Below the pieces are notes generated by a model. The model saw only the letters and a list, made by a program, of their open reading frames with translations. It ran no database searches and had not been told where the DNA came from. Both the position numbers and the translations under genes were made by a program. Source: Novakomyces olei (lineage: Eukaryota; Ascomycota; Novakomycetes; Novakomycetales; Novakomycetaceae). From it: 64,000 bases of DNA. This document shows positions 9,165 to 20,264 of the stretch, piece by piece; position 1 is the stretch's first letter, and every line of letters begins with the position of its first letter. The DNA is taken from NCBI GenBank assembly GCA_016906335.1, contig JADEYG010000009.1:859001-923000 (forward strand), written 5' to 3'.

Positions 9165-9889
9165 TTGGCCTTGATGCAAACGTATGCCTCTCTATACCGT
9201 AATCTTTTTGATTATTTATATACGCGCACAGCTAAATTGGAGACGTATATTATACGAAGGAATATGAACATTCTTTGGATAAAAGTTTAAATGTGTTCAT
9301 GTAAGTTTAGATATTTCCTCTACGACTTTTCACTGTTTACACGAGTACAAAGGCCTCCGCCAGCGACTGGACGCGCCATTCGAGCCGTCTGCAGTACGTA
9401 ACCAAATATAATTTGAATTTATATACAATTCAAATACAATTAAAATTCAAAATACTTCAAACATACTTCCAATACAATTCAAATACAATTCAAATACAAT
9501 TCAAATAATGTAATTCAAGTTCAAACATACTTCAAATTCAATCCACATTTTGTTTACGTTACTGTGGCTAATTGTTTCGGTTTTTTAAAAGGTTTGACAT
9601 TACAGTGGGCCGAGCCACTTTGCAAAGTATCAGCTTCACTATACAATCCACACAATGTTATCCACAAGCCTACAAGACTATAATAATCTCCTTTTATGTC
9701 TCATACTGCCCACCTTTCACGACCAATCACGGTACTTTAATTGAGACACGATAACCGACCTGCCTCCGATAGTGGAAATGACAAGACGACCAAAGTAGTA
9801 CAGCCCACATTAGAAGTAGACTACCGCGATTCCCTCAATACTTTTGCCTTTGATTGCGAGCGGACGTAGAGCCGTTTGTCGCAGCCGAC
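9165..9889. promoter_or_regulatory. Divergent intergenic region with AATACAATTC repeats
   Basis: These 725 bp separate the carrier gene (-) and the oxidoreductase gene (+). At about 9410-9545 a decamer related to AATACAATTC is repeated about ten times with drift. No gene is seen. Confidence 0.65.
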
Positions 9890-11209
9890 ATGACTCAAGC
9901 GCCGGTTCGACTAGCCGTAGTGGGCGCCGGCGCTAGAGCTAATGCCTATGCACAGTACGCGGCTCTGCACCCTGACGCTGTACACTTTGTGGCGGTAGCG
10001 GAGCCGAATGCTTATCGTAGGGAAACGTTTGCCTCAAAGTACGGTGTTGCCAAAGACCGATGCTACACGCACTGGCACGGTCTCGTAGCCGCTGGTCGCA
10101 CTGCCATTGGTGCGGCTGGAGTTCTTGTATGTACTCAGGATCAAATGCACTATGAGCCCTGTATGGCGCTCTTGGAACAAGGCTACCATGTCCTGTGCGA
10201 AAAACCCTTGGCAACAACAGAGTCCCATTGCCGAGATATAGTAGACGCAGCCGAGCGGGCGGGGACACTTTTCGCAGTGGGCCACGTGCTGAGGTACTCG
10301 CCCCACAACAAACTTTTGCTCTCGCTTTTGAGGCAAAAGGTTGTAGGCGACGTAGTCTCCATCAGCCACATGGAGCCAGTTGGCCATGAGCACTTTGCTC
10401 ACAGTTATGTGCGGGGGAACTGGCACCGAGAATGCACAAGCTGCTCAAGTTTGCTGGCCAAATCTTGTCACGATTTGGACCTGCTAACGTGTATGATGGC
10501 CGACGGCCAGGCTAGACTGGTTTCGTCTTTTGGAAGCTTGACTCATTTTAGACGCGAAGCCAAGCCGGCCGCCGCCGGGTCCGCCACACGCTGCTTGGAC
10601 TGTGCTTTTGAGCATAAATGCCCTTACTCTGCAAAACGGATATACATGGACCCCAACGCTGATGGCAGTAGTACAAATCTTAAATGGCCAGCGAATAGAG
10701 TGGTGGATACAAAAGCTGAATTGGAGTCAGCCTTACGCACAGGCCCGTACGGCCTTTGTGTTTATGAGAGTGACAATGACGTCGTTGACAACCAGCATGT
10801 CAATATAGAATTCGAAACGCCTTACGGGAAAGCTCACGCAAATTTCAGTATGGTTGCGTTTACAAGGGCTCAGTGTGTACGGAAAACGCAAATCTACGGC
10901 TCGCTTGGCCAAATTGTAGCGGATGGAGAGTCAGAGATTGTGGTTGACTCTTTTGTCACCGGCAATTCTGCTCGCTATACTGTGGAGAAACCGGGAAACG
11001 AAGCGGAGGGCTCACACGGAGGCGGTGATATGGGGTTAATGCATAGCTTTGTTACCGCTTTAAGGGAAGTGCTAGGCGGTGGTAGTGTTGAGGGGGCTCA
11101 GGCTGCTCATATAAAATGTACTCCACGCGATGTGCTGCGCAGTCATTTGCTTGTGTTTGCCGCGGAAGATAGTAGGAAGAGGTCACAAGTCAATACTCTC
11201 GACTGGTAG
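9890..11209 (+). CDS. Gfo/Idh/MocA family NAD(P)-dependent oxidoreductase
   Basis: This single exon encodes 439 residues from ATG 9890; the in-frame codon at 9854 is TTG. The N-terminal Rossmann fold starts with RLAVVGAGARANAYAQYA. The family dinucleotide/sugar motif CEKPLATT follows at about residue 104, then GHVLRYSP. The C-terminal alpha/beta domain contains the putative catalytic K-x-x-H-D (LLAKSCHDLDLL). A cysteine group CLDCAFEHKCPYSA near residue 240 is typical of one branch of the family found mainly in bacteria. The family acts on sugars and inositols. It is the first gene of a set whose other members act on N-acetylglucosamine, so an amino-sugar derivative is a reasonable guess for the substrate, but that is inference. 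It converges with the kinase gene across only 185 bp. Confidence 0.9.
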   Translation: MTQAPVRLAVVGAGARANAYAQYAALHPDAVHFVAVAEPNAYRRETFASKYGVAKDRCYTHWHGLVAAGRTAIGAAGVLVCTQDQMHYEPCMALLEQGYHVLCEKPLATTESHCRDIVDAAERAGTLFAVGHVLRYSPHNKLLLSLLRQKVVGDVVSISHMEPVGHEHFAHSYVRGNWHRECTSCSSLLAKSCHDLDLLTCMMADGQARLVSSFGSLTHFRREAKPAAAGSATRCLDCAFEHKCPYSAKRIYMDPNADGSSTNLKWPANRVVDTKAELESALRTGPYGLCVYESDNDVVDNQHVNIEFETPYGKAHANFSMVAFTRAQCVRKTQIYGSLGQIVADGESEIVVDSFVTGNSARYTVEKPGNEAEGSHGGGDMGLMHSFVTALREVLGGGSVEGAQAAHIKCTPRDVLRSHLLVFAAEDSRKRSQVNTLDW

Positions 11210-11394
11210 TGTAGTAGGGGAAAGGGTCAATTAAAGTGAATTAAAGGAATAAACATACTATTTTTATCATTATTATTATTATTATAATACAAAGCCTACA
11301 GCGCTGGCAATAATTCTGGAAAAGATAAAATCCTTTCAAGTCTATCGTTTTAGTATAAAACTATGCATACATCTATCTCCGTCATAAAAATCTA

Positions 11395-13005
11395 TCATAC
11401 ATCAGGCATGCAGCGTGCAGCTTCAGCAGCACCCAAAAGGCACTCTGTGTCTGTTGTCATTTCCAGCTCAACGCCAGCATTTGTCAGCCGGGCCAAGCCC
11501 ATACATATCCATAGTTCATCGAGTACTTGCTGACACCGGGAGAAAAACCTGGGATATTTTTCCATTACTGTTCCGGTGACAGCCACACCCACCATTTTCC
11601 CATTAACAGATCCGTTAGATGCGCCATTAAGCTTTGCCTTGCTGTCCATAGTCTTGCACTTTGTTTCAGCCTTGGCTCCCTGGTTGCTGTATTTTGTATT
11701 TAAAAGAGCAATCAGTGAGATAGCCACTAATAAACTTGCTCTAGTGGAAACGCTTTCACAGAGCAATTTAATGGCCTGCATTTCACGCGGAGTATACGCC
11801 CGATGGTTGAGTGGATGCGCCTGGAGGAAAGCTGCACTTCCGGGCCCTTCGCTTCCATAATGACCTTGATATAAATCCTCTTCTAGCTCAGCCATTAAAG
11901 CTGTAGTCAAAGCATAAGGGGTCTGCAAGGACAAAGGAAGCCCATCAAAGAGCCGAGTATTCCGACAAAGGTCAACGAGTATCAAACGAACAAGTTCACC
12001 GAGATACCGACCGCTCACCATTTGCTCAAGCGGCTGAAAACCGGGCCGTTCTAAACCCGCATCTAAAGCACGGTCCCAGGGCGACAGAGTAGGGCCACTA
12101 AACTGATCGAGTTCGGTATTTATAAGCTCAAATTCGCCCTTTTGCAGATGAAGTAAGCTCTGCTTTTGAGGGCCCAATAGACTCACGGGGTAGGAGACAG
12201 CTGCATTACAACCCGTGCCCATAATAAGCCCGACTTCAGTGAGAGGGTTCACTGCCCTCTTACTGAGTAGAGTAGCGGCAGCATCGTTAATCACCACTTT
12301 TAATTCTACTCGCAAGCCGTTTCGTTGCAGGGCTTGTTCAAAAAGCTCTCTAATATCACATCCAACGAGCTCGTCTGCCACTGTATAACCTTTCCCCATG
12401 GACATTAGCAACGCTGTCCTTGCTCCCGTCTGTTGAAGGGGAAAAGAAAAGATCAGTCCCATCGGAATAGACTCTGCCAAATCATGCTTTGCTAAAACCA
12501 GCGTGTCCTTTACACGATGAGCAATCCAGTCAAAAAACTCTGTAGCCCGGGACCGTTTAACGCCTTCTTCAACTGTCCATTTCAAGGCAATACGTACTGT
12601 TGGTTCTTTGCCGCTGAAATCGATAATAGCCGCTCGGAATGTTGATCCACCCAAATCTAAAGCCAAATAAGTACCCTTTTTTGAAGAAATCCGGTCCTCT
12701 ACAAACGTGGGCAGCATTAAACTCGGATCGTCATCAAGCGCATTCGTGCACGATCTGCGTAAGTTTGCCTCCAAGTCACAGACTTTATGCCACTGTGAAA
12801 AATCCGATAGTAATATTGCTCTAATCTTTTGCAGCTCTTGGATCAGGGGATCATCCTTATCGCACACGGAGGGCTCTGATGAAGAAGAAGCCGTTTGATC
12901 GCGAAACTGACCGTCTGTACCCCATGTATAACGCGTCTCTTCGGCTCTTGAGGCTATCGGCAGCGCTGATACTGCCGGCATTGCCGGTTTATGTTTGCTC
13001 AGCAT
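11395..13005 (-). CDS. Atypical hexokinase, probable N-acetylglucosamine kinase (NAG5/HXK1-like)
   Basis: This single exon encodes 536 residues from ATG 13005. The hexokinase fold is clear: phosphate-1 motif LALDLGGSTFRAA near residue 118, SFPLQQTGARTALLMSMGKG near 185, the catalytic-Asp region VINDAAATLLS near 245, and phosphate-2 motif GLIMGTGCNAA. The glucose-kinase signature (SFP-x-S-Q...WTKGF) is replaced by SFPLQQT...MSMGKGY. This, from memory, is the pattern of the fungal GlcNAc-kinase branch (Candida HXK1/NAG5). A serine/asparagine-rich insert lies near residues 455-475. The genes for the next pathway enzyme (deacetylase) and the likely sensor lie directly behind its promoter, which supports the assignment. 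Cytosolic; reaction GlcNAc + ATP to GlcNAc-6-P. Confidence 0.85.
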   Translation of the reverse strand: MLSKHKPAMPAVSALPIASRAEETRYTWGTDGQFRDQTASSSSEPSVCDKDDPLIQELQKIRAILLSDFSQWHKVCDLEANLRRSCTNALDDDPSLMLPTFVEDRISSKKGTYLALDLGGSTFRAAIIDFSGKEPTVRIALKWTVEEGVKRSRATEFFDWIAHRVKDTLVLAKHDLAESIPMGLIFSFPLQQTGARTALLMSMGKGYTVADELVGCDIRELFEQALQRNGLRVELKVVINDAAATLLSKRAVNPLTEVGLIMGTGCNAAVSYPVSLLGPQKQSLLHLQKGEFELINTELDQFSGPTLSPWDRALDAGLERPGFQPLEQMVSGRYLGELVRLILVDLCRNTRLFDGLPLSLQTPYALTTALMAELEEDLYQGHYGSEGPGSAAFLQAHPLNHRAYTPREMQAIKLLCESVSTRASLLVAISLIALLNTKYSNQGAKAETKCKTMDSKAKLNGASNGSVNGKMVGVAVTGTVMEKYPRFFSRCQQVLDELWICMGLARLTNAGVELEMTTDTECLLGAAEAARCMPDV

Positions 13006-14246
13006 GAAGCAGAGCAAAGCTAACGAAAAACGAGAATAGAATTCCGGAAAAATAAATAAAATCTATTCGAAAACGAATAAGAGCAGAGTCTATACAGGAA
13101 TCAAAACGGAAACCGTGAAAGAAGCGTGAAAATAAAAGCACAAGCTATCCGGCGGAGATTTTCCGAGCTATCAAAGCCTAGTCCCGCTACCCAGTGCTCC
13201 GGAGCTAAAATAGCGTTGCTAGTGTTACGGTTCGTTATGAGACAAACGCTCCCACACAATGAAGGTTAATAGCAATGAGGAGGGACTAGTTGAATAAATC
13301 AACGATATTCCGACGCTAATTTTCCAGTTTCGATTTTCCCAATTATTCGGGGGTATGTAAGGAATGAAATGTGTGCCTTGAGGCCTTTTTAGAAGCTCTA
13401 CACGCGGATCATGAGAGCCCCCGGCCGAATATTTTAGGGCCGAATTTGTTAAATAGTCGGGTGTTGCACGACATTTATGTACGCTGTAATAATTGCAAAA
13501 GGATAATATTATGCAACCATCTATCCGTTTCGTAACACATCACATGTGTACAACGGTATGCGCGTATGAAATTCGCACTAGAACTATATAATGTGGGTGA
13601 ACAGATCTGCGTTACACAGGGCTGTGTAACTTCACTTTCGCTAGCGTTACACTAACCCGGGCGAGGCTCATTGTTACACGAGCACGAGTATTACTTTGAT
13701 GTTACATCGGTCTCCAATATTTTCGGGTGGGCAAAGAGATAGAGATGAAGAAATAGTGATGGAGCGGGCGAGTTTGGTGGTTTTGCCGCGCGTCGTTCTA
13801 TTGATACACGGATGCAAGACATGTGCGGAAATCGTAGTTTGTGACTAACATACTCGGGCATTCAAACCCTGATGTGTTCTGCTCTCTCGTTATGAGGTGT
13901 GCGTCATGTAGAGCTGTGACTAACATTATTCCAATACAATGAGGGTGCGCACAGGGTATGAAAGGCCCGGCCCGTCTTTGCTTAGGCCATCCGTAAATGT
14001 TTTACATCAGTGTTACATGCATATTCACAAAGGCCATCCCATTGACTGATTTACACTTTAGCTAGAGACGGTGCGATGGACTCAATTGGCACCAATGACT
14101 ATACAATACTAGCACCTGTTTGCAAGAGATTTAAAATTTATAAATTTATCCCATACGCTATCCACATTTCACTTTAATGGTTATTTAAATTTTTTTCCTC
14201 CTCCTCGCTCTCTAATGCTTTTTGGAACCAAACACCCCGTATATCA
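13006..14246. promoter_or_regulatory. 1.24-kb upstream region of the GlcNAc kinase gene with GTTACAC motif cluster
   Basis: This is the longest spacer of the GlcNAc cluster, lying between the kinase start and the deacetylase stop. GTTACAC occurs at 13611, 13646 and 13673 and inverted at 13624, and GTTACAT at 13701 and 14012. The first two form an inverted pair separated by 6 bp. I see no coding region here. Motif function is inferred from clustering only. Confidence 0.5.
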
Positions 14247-15818
14247 TCACCGCCATGCGCGCTGAGTAACACGTTCCACACGCCGACCCGCAAAATAGAC
14301 ATCCTTCACAAACCCCTCCGCGTCAAAGACAACAAGGTCAGCTCTGCCTCCTGCTTTAAGCGACCCACGGTGCGGATACTCATTCAACATCTTTGCTGGG
14401 TGCTCCGTGACACATGCGAGGGCAACGGCTAAACCAGCACCTGACCATTGTGCAAAGTTACGGACGCAAACGTCCAGTGTGACTGCGCTACCGGCAATAT
14501 TGCCTTCCTCAGCGAGCAGTAAATGACCCTCATCGTCCTTTATAATTTTCTCTCCGTTAGTCCAGTCATACGTGCCCGGAGGAAGTCCCAGCATGGTCAT
14601 GGCATCAGTGACCAAGATGGTTCCCTCAGGATTTGCATGGTGAGCCATGCTGACACAGCTTGGGTGCACATGGAAATTGTCGGCAATAATACCATAATGC
14701 ACTCGCCGAGTCATTTCTTTATCGCCCAATAACCCGAGAACCCCAGGATTACGGTGATGCATTGGGTTCATTGCATTGAACAAATGCGTAATCATACTGG
14801 CTCCACGCTGAACTGCTTCGCGTGCTTGTTCAAAGGTAGCGGAAGTGTGTCCGATGGAATATACAATCTCGCGCCGTACCAGTTCTGCAATAATTTTGGG
14901 ATCGGAGAGCAGGACTTCCGGGGCCGCAGTAATTTTACGGACAGGCCCACCATTGCGTAGATTATCTGGACCGTAGCATTCTTCTAGAGACTCAAAATTT
15001 CGTGCTGTACGAATGCATTCGCTAGCATGGATTCCCTTTTTCTGGGGCGAGATAAAAGGCCCTTCAGCGTGAACTCCCAATACGGCCGCCACGGGCTGCG
15101 AGTGCTGGCGGTCAGAATTGTTGTATGCTCAATACAAATTGAGTGCTTACCTCTCCTCCCTCCTTACTAGTGCCATTCGCTTCTCTCTTGCTTGCCTCCT
15201 GCTTTTGGCGATAAGCATCAAATACGGGCAGGACGGTTTGGTAGAGCTCCGGGCTCTGTGTCGTGATTGTCGGCATGTAAGCAGTAACACCAGACTGCAG
15301 CAAGTACCGCCCTACGTGGTCAATGCCCGCTGCGTAATTGGAGCAGTCAGTAGAGAAATCGAAGCCGAGCGCTCCGTTCAGCTGGACGTCCAGCATGCCT
15401 GTTGCCAGTTAGAAGAGTGCCAGTTAAAAGAGTGCTAGTTAGAAGAGTGCCAATTAGAAGAGTGCCAGTTAGCAGAGTGCCAATTAGCAGAGTGCCAATT
15501 AGCAGAGTGCCAGTCAGAAGAATGCCAGTCAGAAGAATGCCAGTCAGAAGAAGAGGCCAGTTAGAAGAGTGCCAGTTAGAAGAGTGCCAATTAGAACAGC
15601 CAGGCGCCAACGCCAGCGCCTAGTGTGGCTCTAGAGTACTTACCGGGAGACAGGATACACCCGGCCAGGTCTATAGTCTGCGTCGCCGCTCGAGCGTCAG
15701 AGTAAAAAGCGTCTTGCCCGTCCACGATTACTCCCTTGTCCGTGTTGACCCATACATCGCGGCGCTCAAAGACACCGCCTTCGCCGACACACTCGGCATT
15801 GGCGAACCGTACCAGCAT
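14247..15818 (-). CDS. DAC1: N-acetylglucosamine-6-phosphate deacetylase (DAC1/NagA)
   Basis: Exons 15644-15818, 15151-15398 and 14247-15104 (minus strand) encode 426 residues. The enzyme converts GlcNAc-6-P to GlcN-6-P and acetate. The amidohydrolase landmarks are in order: LSPGMLDVQLNGALG (joined across intron 1), GVHAEGPFI with the metal-binding Glu, SIGHTSA and THLFNAM with metal-binding histidines, IIADNFHVHP, and VTDAMTMLG with the catalytic Asp. IADNFHVHP has Asn where I expect Gly in the usual IADG-x-H; this is a possible lineage trait. Intron 1 (15399-15643) is filled by a minisatellite; intron 2 is 15105-15150. It is transcribed divergently from the GH3-GNAT sensor gene, a sensible pairing for shared induction by GlcNAc. 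Confidence 0.93.
15402..15597. repeat. 15-bp minisatellite inside DAC1 intron 1
   Basis: About 13 tandem copies of a 15-bp unit (CAGTTAGAAGAGTGC on the plus strand, with CAATTAGCAG and CAGTCAGAAGAA variants) fill most of the 245-bp intron. One unit is 17 bp long. Because 15 is a multiple of three and the unit lacks stops in some frames, long spurious open frames appear on both strands. Confidence 0.95.
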
Positions 15819-16511
15819 TCTGCGATCTTTTGCGTCTACAAGATCTTTTGCTCCTGCAAAGATCTTTCTTTTGCGCCAGCAATGCCGGACTCGTCTCGAC
15901 GCGCTCTTGTACTCTTACTGGCCATGTTACACAAGCCCGTCTCGTCTAAGGTTACACTAAATGTTTGTGTGCCACCGAGTGCGACCAATCAACTAATTAA
16001 TCAATCAATTAATCAATGAATCAATTATTTATTTATTCGCAAATTATTCGTTCGCAGCGGAGAATATTCGTCATAGAACGCAAACAACGCGTCACTGTGA
16101 CCACAAAAGTATAGTCAATTTGACGCGCGACCTGTCAATCTCGACCCGAAGATTTACAGCAAACCGCCAAGCATTCTACCAAGCAGACCCGTTTTTGAGT
16201 AAACAAGCATTCCTCCCTTTCCGAGTTCGTCGTGTTGACGTGTTGCTGGCCGTAGCTGCCGACTAGTGTAGTGTAATAATTAGTGCAAAACTTTACAATC
16301 ACCAGTCTCAGTGCTGCCTCATTGCTGGCATATTAATGTTACATTGCGGGCTCATTGCTGGCGTTGGCCCAGGCTCGTAGCCGTGTCCCGTATAAAAAAG
16401 TAAAACAATAATGTCTGCTGTAGTGACCCACATTATAATAATGCCTGCCTGACGATGAGCAAGAGCTCTCACTATGCGACCACCTTGTGAGCCATAGGGG
16501 CTGCGCGCCAT
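15819..16511. promoter_or_regulatory. Divergent DAC1 / GH3-GNAT promoter
   Basis: This 693-bp bidirectional promoter contains GTTACAC at 15925 and 15950 and GTTACAT at 16338, the same motif as upstream of the kinase gene. Just upstream of the DAC1 start is a repeated GATCTTTTGC (about 15823 and 15841) with an inverted GCAAAGATC (about 15856). An AATTAATCA run lies at 15990-16030. Confidence 0.55.
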
Positions 16512-19467
16512 ATGGATCCGAGTATATACAAGTAGGCTTACCCTCCGCGAGTCCAGGTCTGGCCTGTCTACTGTCTAACCTTCTACAGATGCCTCGGGCA
16601 GATGATGCTCGTCGGCTTCGACGGGTACACGGTAACGGACGAAGTACGGTCTCTAATCAAAGACCATTATGTCGGAAACATTATGCTGTCGCGTAAAAAC
16701 GTGCAGTCGGCAGTGCAGGTAATGCAATTGGTACAGGACTTGCAGAGGATCGCGTTTGATGCGGGCCACGAGTTCCCCCTGGCAGTCTCAATCGACCAGG
16801 AGGGTGGGATGATGAGCTCAATCACAGACAGCGAGAGTCTTACCATGTTCCCTGGTGGGATGGCTCTTGTGGCTACGGGGAGCAGAAGCTTGGCGGAGAA
16901 GGTTACCCAGGCAGCCGCCAGTGAGCTCCGATCACTCGGGATTTGGTGGAATTTTGCACCTGTACTCGATGTCTTGACCGACCCGACAGCCACGCTTATC
17001 GGCACTCGAGCCCTGAGCGACTCGCCCAAGACTGTCGCAGAGTATGCTGTTGCAATGATCAAGGGGATGCATACTGCCGGCGTCTCTGCCCTGGGGAAGC
17101 ATTTCCCTGGCTACGGAGCCGTTCACTGTGAGAATTTGGGTACCGCTGCGGTTACTGAGCCCCTGGAGCAGCTGGAAGTATCGAGCTTTTTGCCCTTCCG
17201 CAGCAGTATTGAGCATGGAGATCTGGATTCTATCCTGGTGGGCGCCTGTACCATGCCCAACCTCATATCAGACGGCCTGGTAGCCTGCCTGTCTGGACTG
17301 ATTGTCAAAGACATACTCAGACACGAACTCAACTTTGAAGGAATAATCGTGTCTGACTGTCTCGCCATCAACACGGTTTACGACAACTTTGGAGTACGAC
17401 AGGGCACTGTGAGCGCAGTCAGTGCTGGCTGCGATATAGTGCTTGTCTGCCGTTCCTACCACATCCAACAGGAAGCTATTTCTGCTCTTAAAGAGGCAGC
17501 TCAAACCGGAGCAATTGACGTTAAAGACATCTACACTTCATATAACCGTATAAAGCGCTGGAAACAACGCTACGTTACCTGGGATGCCTGCTTCCTGCCC
17601 GCTCAAAGGAGCCTGGACTTGCTTAGGCAGTTGCGCTCTTACAATTACGAACTAGTTACGTGTGCTTACCGCAGTGCTATTACTGTAGTCCGTGATGACA
17701 ACCATACCCTGCCATTGACAAAGCACTTGTCCCGGCCTGGCGCTACCATTGCTCTGCTTACTCCTCTAGCACTGGCGGGTCCCTATCGAACAAAAGACGA
17801 TACAGCGGCCGCCGCCGCTTTAGACTTGGCTCCTGGCGAGCTGACCTTCCGCATGTTTGGCCTGCAATTGGCACAGTACCATAAACCGGTGGAGCATACT
17901 TCTTATTCCTCTCACGGGCTCGATGATATGAGTGAAAGGCTTGTGCTGCAAGCTGATGCAGTTGTGGTGGTAACTGCTAATGCTGCTAATAACCTTTATC
18001 AGCGTAGTGTAGTCCGCCACGTTCGCGCTCTTTGCAACTGTGGCGGCAATAAGCCCATGGTGGTCATTGCCGTGAGCAATCCGTATGATTTTGCTCTGGA
18101 TGATTCAGGTATACATGATTATATTTACATTTATATTTGCATTTCTTTTTTGCATTTCTTTGTATTAATCGCAGTGTCGGTTTACCTGTGTACGTACGAT
18201 ATATCAAAGCAGGCACTTCAAGCCTGTACTGACGTCATGTTTGGCGCTCTTAAAGCAGAGGGTTCTCTGCCTGTATCCACAAAACCCAAATTGCAGCCAC
18301 CCGATCGGTTCAGACAATATGAGAATACCTGGAGCGTTGAACCCTGGACGTCCAAGCAAGGCGTTAGCGATATTGGTAAGTTAATGACCATTTGTAATAT
18401 CAAAATTTCGGCGTTTCACTTTTAACCATGTCTAACCCAAATTTAGCAAGCCTTTTGCGCGAATGCTTCCCTGAAATTCGGCTAGATAATACCCTTCTTC
18501 ATGAACTAAGTCAGCCTCGGGTGTGGTCTTGTGTGGTAAGAGACGAAAGCCAAGTCGTCGGTCTTTGTGTAACTGTCAGCATGGAGACACGACAAGTAAA
18601 TGGCTTAGTGGGTCCAACTGGCCGAGTGGCAGTTTTGGCTGTACGTCCCTCTCATCGGCGGCAGTTCATTGGTCAAACTCTTCATCACGCTGCTCTTAGA
18701 CATTTGTTTCGGTCACGTAACGTTTCTCGGGTGGGATTTGCTTACGAATACGTGCTGTTATTGCCTCCGCCATTATTACGAAAGTGTTCGCAAATGCTCC
18801 AGTTTCTGATCGCACAAGAATGGCATATTGAGGGAGCGCTTGATTTGTTTAGTATAGAGCGGCTACCACAATGGCAGCCGCCCTTACAGCAGCTGGAAGA
18901 GTGTAGTAATCAGGATATAAAATTCATCAACGGGTCTGACGAGGTTCTCATGCAGATTTTCACGCTCATGTATGCTTATAGCGATACAATTATGAGCCTG
19001 TTTTTGGATATTGTTGAGACTACGGATCTCGATAATGTCATTCTTGCCATACACAGTAAGTGATTGGTCATGCTAACCTGTCTTTATTCTTTTTTATTTA
19101 TCGGTTAATTTTCAATAGTCCTTTAATATTTATATACTTTCTTCTATTTACTGATACAATAGGTGACCACGAAATAGCCGGTCTCATTGTGACTGCAAAA
19201 ATTCTGGATGCGCCTAATGTAACTAGCGTTGGGCGTGTGCACTCGCTGAATTTGTTTTCAAAAGACAAGCTTGTATACGATCTTGCTGCTATTGGGCTTT
19301 TAGTCTCCGCTGTGATGAAGCTGCAAAAGCAGGGATACGATGAGTGCTTTCTCGAAGTCGTCAATGAAAAGCTGCCCGATATGCTGTTTGAAGAAGTGGG
19401 ATTTGGTGGCCGAGTGCGAATGCCCGTCCTTTCACGTTACTCGGGAGAGTTTCATTTCGTGCACTGA
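16512..19467 (+). CDS. NGS1: GH3-GNAT fusion, Ngs1-like N-acetylglucosamine sensor/acetyltransferase
   Basis: Exons 16512-16531, 16589-18108, 18175-18375, 18447-19055 and 19163-19467 encode 884 residues, close to Candida Ngs1. Residues 1 to about 570 form a family-3 glycoside hydrolase (NagZ-like) region with LGQMMLVGFDGY, SIDQEGG, KHFPGYG and the nucleophile segment IIVSDCLAI. The D-[ST]-H acid/base motif that follows KHFPGHG in active NagZ is absent, which fits a GlcNAc-binding sensor rather than a hydrolase. The C-terminal part is a GNAT acetyltransferase with GRVAVLAVRPSHRRQFIG (motif A) and a second GNAT-like half (GLIVTAKIL, AIGLLV, ECFLEVVNE). In Candida, Ngs1 is nuclear and acetylates histone H3 on GlcNAc genes; I infer the same role. 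The first exon (MDPSIYK) is the weakest part. Confidence 0.88.
18109..18174 (+). other. In-frame, stop-free 66-bp intron in the GH3-GNAT gene
   Basis: The intron starts GTATAC and ends AATCGCAG. It is a multiple of three and has no stop, so a retained copy would add 22 mostly hydrophobic residues between the GH3 and GNAT parts. Splicing gives the smoother join DDSVSVYLCTYD and is preferred. Confidence 0.65.
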
Positions 19468-19935: not shown

Positions 19936-20264
19936 CGTTTGGGATTCGATCAGTGTGGCCTTTTGCTATTCTTGTCATATATCTAGTGCCGATCACATGT
20001 ACAAAACCTAACCCTAACCCTAACATTGACTATATTTATTTCACGTACATACGGAGAATGCAATCCCACGTCTTTTCACAACGGCCCAAAATATCCTGCT
20101 ACTACAATATTCCCCTCCTATTAATATTTATTATTATTTATTAATATTTATTAATATTTATTAATATTTATTATTGTTTAGTGTTGAATCCAACGTAGAA
20201 TTGTCCATATGACGTCTCGACGAGTCTCGACTTGAGCGCCAATCGCCGCATAAACAGCATAAAA
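19936..20264. promoter_or_regulatory. Divergent spacer with a telomere-like tract and AT-rich run
   Basis: The spacer between the small unknown gene and the MBOAT gene holds CCTAACCCTAACCCTAAC at 20007-20024 and a TTATTAATATTTA run at about 20117-20177. I see no gene. Confidence 0.7.
20007..20024. repeat. Interstitial telomere-like tract (CCCTAA)3
   Basis: Eighteen bases of perfect CCCTAA repeat, in the orientation CCCTAA on the plus strand. It lies in the promoter region of two divergent genes. Confidence 0.9.

Follow-up and report, generated by a model that had tools for sequence, protein, structure and literature searches.

Introduction

In ascomycetes such as Candida, Trichoderma and Yarrowia, the genes for a kinase, a deacetylase and a sensor that joins a glycoside hydrolase family 3 (GH3) domain to a GNAT domain lie adjacent in a cluster for the catabolism of N-acetylglucosamine (GlcNAc) (PMC4376941, PMC4950302). 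The arrangement in Yarrowia lipolytica is a neighbouring group of three, namely the genes for the kinase, the GH3 protein and the deacetylase, with the remaining pathway genes scattered (PMC4376941). Mutation of D74, R145 or K175H176 in the Candida sensor Ngs1 abolishes the GlcNAc response; its catalytic His is replaced by Leu, and V686 and G696 are taken as acetyl-CoA contacts (PMC5063960). Here we describe a stretch of 64,000 nucleotides from Novakomyces olei (contig JADEYG010000009.1, positions 859,001 to 923,000 of the forward strand; hereafter the window), located on contig C9 of a 14.34 Mb genome in 15 contigs, which holds such a cluster beside a gene for an oxidoreductase of the Gfo/Idh/MocA fold.

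For this oxidoreductase the closest described systems are enzymes that use NAD+ as a recycled catalyst. SqgA of family GH188 cleaves sulfoquinovosides via transient oxidation at C3; its His193 and Lys107 meet the C3 hydroxyl and His321 the C1 hydroxyl (PMC10755693). In a GH109 N-acetylgalactosaminidase the residues that superpose on His193 and His321 are His259 and His404, and the GH109 enzymes, including AmGH109A, likewise use NAD+ and have a related fold (PMC10755693). Our tentative reading of the N. olei locus is a GlcNAc cluster with an adjoining bacterial-type gene whose product may be an NAD-recycling glycosidase that feeds the kinase.

Results

Genes of the locus

The original prediction had proposed a four-gene GlcNAc cluster including the oxidoreductase. 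All four genes were found where it had placed them, and their families are supported by Pfam or NCBIfam profiles or by PDB matches:

9890..11209, plus strand: oxidoreductase of the Gfo/Idh/MocA fold; one exon, 439 amino acids (aa); PF01408 with an E-value (E) of 5.1e-21
11395..13005, minus strand: hexokinase-fold kinase, putatively of the NAG5/HXK3 type; one exon, 536 aa; PF00349 and PF03727
14247..15818, minus strand: GlcNAc-6-phosphate deacetylase DAC1/NAG2; exons 15818-15644, 15398-15151 and 15104-14247; 426 aa
16512..19467, plus strand: NGS1-type GH3-GNAT GlcNAc sensor; exons 16512-16531, 16589-18108, 18175-18375, 18447-19055 and 19163-19467; 884 aa

The splice models are based on GT-AG sites, open frame and conservation within the family, that is, on sequence alone; in DAC1 an alternative acceptor would lead to a product of 423 aa.

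Predicted structure and active site of the oxidoreductase

The predicted model of the oxidoreductase has a mean predicted local distance difference test (pLDDT) score of 94.9. In a Foldseek comparison with the PDB, ranks 1 and 3-7 went to SqgA-type (GH188) NAD-dependent glycoside hydrolases (8qc2, 8qc3, 8qc5, 8qc6, 8qc8) and rank 2 to YjhC, with TM-scores of 0.66-0.69 by query length and 17-18% identity among these top seven. When the C-terminal part alone was used for a profile search, two SqgA sequences came first with weak scores (E 0.013 and 0.43). The catalytic residues of SqgA have candidate counterparts in the fungal protein. A hidden Markov model (HMM) alignment to 8qc2, whose numbering was transferred to ArSqgA with an offset of 13, placed H194 on His193 (stretch of 17.9 bits) and H376 on His321, and K105, the Lys of an EKP motif, corresponds to Lys107. 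All 58 aligned relatives share K105, H194, H376 and D380, hence both the His and the Asp of the HGGGD loop in which H376 lies, and E162 (also 58/58) is within one position of SqgA Glu163. The GH109 enzymes, too, have a Gly-rich loop with a His, written GGHGG compared with HGGGD here; GGHGG is reportedly the loop motif of that family, going by the title of a 2020 study of Teze and co-workers.

The chemistry of the oxidoreductase is thus probably of the same kind as that of the NAD-dependent glycosidases, with a different substrate. From its residues and nearest structures we infer an NAD-recycling enzyme that would cleave or convert a hexosaminide. It shares only 16-18% identity with SqgA, is longer and contains a stretch with four Cys, and no GH109 member was among the five sequence-profile matches or the best 50 of 1808 fold matches. 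It probably lies outside NanOx, GH188 and GH109.

Several observations weigh against a glycosidase. The fold margin is small, since SqgA (E 1e-23) is followed by glucose-fructose oxidoreductase (5e-22) with inositol dehydrogenases nearby, and identity is 13-19% across the best 50 of the 1808 Foldseek matches. The alignment of H376 with His321 is weak (11.8 bits, E 0.98, accuracy 0.55). The positions of SqgA Tyr136 and Glu189 are L134 and A190 in the fungal protein, and the 8qc2 alignment shows no Arg or Lys at the places aligned with the sulfonate-binding Arg166 and Lys172. Within the search made here, no characterised member of the clade was found.

With the relatives as query, the sequence profiles draw attention to another kind of NAD-recycling enzyme. 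In searches with two of the alignments (A2 and A4, described below) RgNanOx and YjhC (6z3b, 6z3c, 6o15) ranked first, over the N-terminal part, and they have the EKP Lys and the HxxD His in common with the oxidoreductase. RgNanOx works via a 4-keto intermediate with regeneration of NAD (PMC7535918) and needs K93, K163, H175, H176 and H178 for activity. A converter of NanOx or epimerase type would, by transient oxidation at C4 or C3, produce GlcNAc or a precursor of it from GalNAc (N-acetylgalactosamine), an anhydro-amino-sugar or a sialic-acid derivative while leaving glycosidic bonds between sugars intact, and the galactosamine-type genes beside some bacterial relatives (see below) would suit it. 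However, only K93 and H178 are kept (K105 and H194), whereas the positions of K163, H175 and H176 are H179, K191 and S192, so that three of five essential residues are replaced, and with alignment A1 the uncharacterised dehydrogenase 3moi ranked first instead. We consider a converter unlikely.

The enzyme could also be a plain dehydrogenase that uses NAD(P), acts on free amino sugars or the corresponding acids and works together with the other three genes; this would agree with the membership in PF01408 and with the close position of such enzymes in the fold ranking. In agreement with this, the best partial NCBIfam match is UDP-GlcNAc 3-dehydrogenase, at 69.6 bits compared with a cut-off of 450. 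The nearest folds are nevertheless NAD-dependent glycosidases, and the additional invariant His of the HGGGD loop aligns, if weakly, with their second catalytic His. This possibility appears very unlikely to us.

A bacterial-type clade of relatives

The oxidoreductase is unlike the other Gfo/Idh/MocA genes of its own genome, where the next-best matches reach 26 and 21.5 bits and a genome search found no second member of its clade. It matches 689 plasmid records, the best 18 rows with 38-47% identity over 83-94% of the length, and identity drops to 25% at the end of the matches listed. Used singly as query, the protein gave no match in a collection of genome contigs; an alignment including the plasmid-record relatives was then used and yielded at least 587 confirmed relative stretches. 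The best 80 loci were retained, which come from many bacterial phyla and one archaeal metagenome-assembled genome. Alignment A2 contains 58 of these 80 relatives and alignments A3 and A4 contain 26, the rest having been dropped for size. To the 58 relatives of A2 the fungal protein has 39-49% identity, with 37 invariant alignment columns. Cys 235, 238, 244 and 290 are the same in all 58, which suggests a metal site in this clade.

In a quick tree of 90 rows the fungal sequence stands on a long branch (0.96) without a starred group, for which reason no source could be named when we looked for a donor. Its overall and third-position GC content (GC and GC3) are ordinary compared with nine other open reading frames (ORFs) of the window. 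A bacterial origin of the gene is possible; if so, the acquisition was not recent.

Bacterial gene neighbourhoods

Neighbours were called from all ORFs plus profiles around the best 80 of the at least 587 relatives; many of these loci are shorter than 20 kb, and related loci were kept separate. As controls served 40 hand-picked loci with a fixed centre, drawn from the top-scoring PF01408 matches listed for 19 of 20 genomes searched, with one, two or three loci from each of these genomes; two of them end early at contig ends (9.1 and 12.8 kb). The hexosamine set consisted of SIS, NagA, BadF kinase, AnmK, hexosaminidase, GH123 and GH114. At a distance of up to 6.5 kb, a gene of this set was present in 10 of the 80 clade loci and in none of the 40 controls (Fisher p = 0.014); the figures were 9/80 and 0/40 within 5 kb (p = 0.022) and 6/80 and 0/40 within 3 kb (p = 0.08).

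Individual loci illustrate this association. A Serratia locus combines the oxidoreductase gene with genes for a GH123-like protein, a solute-binding protein, ROK and DeoR proteins, an AgaS-family protein and tagatose-bisphosphate aldolase, the last two above their curated cut-offs. For the GH123-like gene (Serratia locus L029, 3588-5270, minus strand) no NCBIfam model matched at 1e-10. On two Deinococcus plasmids the oxidoreductase gene is accompanied by BadF-type, SIS, aldolase and PfkB-type genes and, by profile, by a GH4-type gene; on one of them a gene is annotated as endo-alpha-1,4-polygalactosaminidase. In Thermomicrobium the oxidoreductase gene is next to SIS, nagA and AnmK genes, and a hexosaminidase gene is also at the locus. 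As a separate observation, a polygalactosaminidase-type and a GH4-type gene lie near the clade oxidoreductase in loci L013 and L040; the assignment comes from the annotation in Deinococcus and from a weak phmmer match (E 6e-7) in Streptomyces. The occurrence of a GH4-type gene and a clade oxidoreductase in one locus brings two types of NAD-using enzymes together.

The signal has clear limits, which count against a hexosamine substrate. By these profiles 70 of the 80 relatives have no hexosamine neighbour. GH123 and GH114 became part of the set only once they had been seen, and without them the difference within 6 kb is 7/80 to 0/40 (p = 0.053). Moreover, the ten positive loci are not independent, as they include two nearly identical Serratia loci, with which L023 groups. 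Plasmid loci of Streptomyces and Paenibacillus contain sugar uptake genes and no hexosamine genes. Ten plasmid loci were opened, of which seven were usefully annotated: three had hexosamine genes, one an amidohydrolase-family and a GH4-type gene, and three none of these. An enrichment of ROK kinases within 3 kb (19/80 to 3/40, p = 0.023) was lost at 6 kb (19/80 to 5/40, p = 0.11) and was discarded. Taken together, the bacterial context leans to hexosamines, often of galactosamine type, as a minority signal.

The GlcNAc genes

The putative GlcNAc kinase, the deacetylase and the Ngs1-type sensor constitute an ordinary fungal GlcNAc catabolic cluster of the Yarrowia type and add one more fungus to the known cases. 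The earlier assignment of these three genes to the GlcNAc pathway holds.

With 227 bits the deacetylase exceeds the curated cut-off of the nagA model TIGR00221 (225.65 bits), and its best PDB relative is 7nut, a GlcNAc-6-phosphate deacetylase (E 5e-76).

The sensor contains both GH3 and GNAT domains and is encoded by the sole GH3 match found in the genome. Its residues 2-820 have their best PDB match in 4zm6, named N-acetyl-beta-D glucosaminidase, which we take to be RmNag of Rhizomucor. It resembles RmNag, Trichoderma NGS1 and Candida Ngs1 (CaNgs1) in this domain pair, in the retained GlcNAc-binding residues and in the Val/Gly spacing of the acetyl-CoA site. D76, R147, K177 and H178 correspond to CaNgs1 D74, R145, K175 and H176 with a constant offset of two. 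V646 and G656 have the same ten-residue spacing as V686 and G696, of which they are presumably the equivalents. As in Candida Ngs1, a Leu (L190) is found at the catalytic His position of the Asp-His dyad; at the dyad Asp the sensor differs from Ngs1-type proteins in having Glu (E188). In Trichoderma NGS1 as described, the nucleophile Asp differs (PMC12176254), whereas the sensor of N. olei appears to keep an Asp (SDCL at 262). Since the GlcNAc-binding residues are kept and the catalytic His is replaced by Leu, this NGS1-type protein should sense GlcNAc rather than hydrolyse its glycosides.

The genome holds three hexokinase-fold proteins, among which the kinase of the window is the outlier: its identity to the others is 31.0% and 30.7%, compared with 37.7% between those two, one of the three sequences (the third) having been joined crudely from exon pieces. 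It is without the Trp that both others carry in RWxKG[YF] and NxEW. At the latter position it reads NTELDQF, with the Glu retained and the Trp lost, and Yarrowia Nag5 has NCEASLF there (PMC4376941). These features would fit a divergent GlcNAc kinase of the NAG5/HXK3 type.

The locus differs from the described ascomycete clusters in the additional oxidoreductase gene and in having the genes for glucosamine-6-phosphate (GlcN-6-P) deaminase and an Ndt80-type protein on other contigs. The deaminase gene lies near 728 kb of contig C3, and the one Ndt80-type match found in the genome is on contig C7, both unlinked to the cluster. The Ndt80-type regulator RON1 is linked to the GlcNAc cluster in many, though not all, cases. 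The original prediction had noted the absence of a deaminase and a transporter from the window. In agreement with this, neither a deaminase nor a sugar transporter was among 16 window stretches that were scanned with Pfam, which include the four genes and represent part of the genes of the window. An unlinked deaminase or transporter is no anomaly, because Y. lipolytica shows the same scattering.

Relation of the oxidoreductase to the cluster

The 185 bp between oxidoreductase and kinase (11210-11394), which the original prediction had pointed out, were confirmed, and the two genes are convergent. Due to this tail-to-tail arrangement their closeness is no sign of a shared promoter. DAC1 and the sensor gene are, as expected, divergently transcribed, with 693 bp between the start codons. 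For the middle sporulation element (MSE) of Ndt80 we assumed the consensus gNCRCAAAW. Two exact matches (15836 and 15877, minus strand) lie near the DAC1 start, compared with 11 in the 64 kb on both strands. With this consensus no Ndt80-type site was found in the 709 bp upstream of the oxidoreductase, and none before the kinase either. Words common to the four upstream regions showed no excess over random windows.

The convergent orientation and the lack of a motif for the oxidoreductase speak against a common regulatory unit and would fit a normal GlcNAc cluster with a chance neighbour, for instance a sugar or polyol dehydrogenase that is expressed alone. Such adjacency would not be surprising in a genome with nine PF01408 matches at separate places. 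The bacterial relatives, too, are often found in generic sugar-uptake loci, where 33 of 89 have permease-like ORFs no more than 6 kb away and many other neighbours are unassigned. The word oxidoreductase is absent from the main texts of the Trichoderma (PMC4950302, PMC12176254) and Yarrowia (PMC4376941) cluster papers. For Aspergillus fumigatus an oxidoreductase is reported near one gene and belongs to a different family, GMC (PMC12584764), and the available text of one fungal paper that names both the Gfo/Idh/MocA family and N-acetylglucosamine contains nothing bearing on a link between them (PMC4556806). On the other side, the genome has yielded no other member of the oxidoreductase clade, and bacterial relatives, unlike the control paralogues, repeatedly have hexosamine genes nearby. 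We regard a chance neighbour as quite possible.

Adjacency, the unique copy and a suitable chemistry count for an oxidoreductase that belongs to the cluster. Its proposed extension of amino-sugar metabolism is plausible in view of the active-site residues, the nearest structures and some bacterial neighbourhoods, while its membership in a functional cluster unit is putative: it is convergent with the kinase and no shared promoter element was found. If the glycosidase, the converter and the plain dehydrogenase, all of which imply a joint function with the three GlcNAc genes, are considered together, we judge such a function to stand at about even, tilting slightly towards yes.

Other features of the locus

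Two further elements belong to the gene models:

15399..15643, minus strand: first intron of DAC1, made up largely of a 15-bp minisatellite containing branch-site-like words of the form CT[AG]A[CT]
15819..16511, no strand: divergent DAC1/NGS1 promoter region with the two MSE matches on the minus strand

The minisatellite of DAC1 intron 1 extends over 15403-15596 (12.8 copies of 15 bp). The intron has nine CTAAC/CTAAT words plus further CTGAC ones, which resemble the branch-site-like motifs that the other introns of the locus have 10-15 nt upstream of their acceptors. This intron may be filled with candidate branch sites. Upstream of the oxidoreductase, AT-rich tandem repeats (ATACAATTCAA and a 22-bp form) occupy 9423-9542, and to the right of NGS1 there is a short interstitial telomere-like CCTAACCCTAACCCTAAC stretch at about 20008-20024. 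An aquaporin-type gene was seen among the Pfam-scanned stretches of the window.

In an exon-by-exon search that scored the best candidates only, one GH18 match was found in the genome (contig C15:744565-745227), seemingly few for a chitin-using fungus. GH114 was not found in the N. olei genome.

Discussion

From the gene anatomy, the protein families and the conserved residues we infer the following joint function. Cytosolic GlcNAc would be bound in the GH3 pocket of NGS1, which would have lost hydrolysis, and GlcNAc-bound NGS1 would drive acetylation of promoters by means of its GNAT domain. GlcNAc would be converted to fructose-6-phosphate by the kinase, DAC1 and the deaminase encoded elsewhere. 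The oxidoreductase might work with a bound NAD+ restored in every turnover. In a glycoside or anhydro-sugar that contains hexosamine it would oxidise a ring hydroxyl, whereupon the neighbouring bond would break by elimination, water would be added and the ketone would be re-reduced. In this way it may deliver free N-acetylhexosamine to the kinase and replace the hydrolysis that the GH3 domain of NGS1 has lost.

A bolder proposal, which we consider doubtful, is that the four-Cys clade as a whole represents an unrecognised family of NAD+-dependent hexosaminidases for GalNAc or GlcNAc glycosides that is widespread in bacteria. One member would have been gained beside a fungal GlcNAc cluster and would restore the intracellular hexosaminidase activity given up by the GH3 domain of NGS1, perhaps opening galactosamine-containing glycans to the fungus.

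The oxidoreductase matters more than the three GlcNAc genes. At least 587 stretches are related to it, the best 80 of which were examined here. If its three catalytic residues act as they do in SqgA, the clade would represent a considerable number of uncharacterised enzymes that cleave glycosides in an NAD-dependent way. If this is true, the fungal cluster and the Serratia and Deinococcus loci would point to amino sugars as the first candidate substrates.

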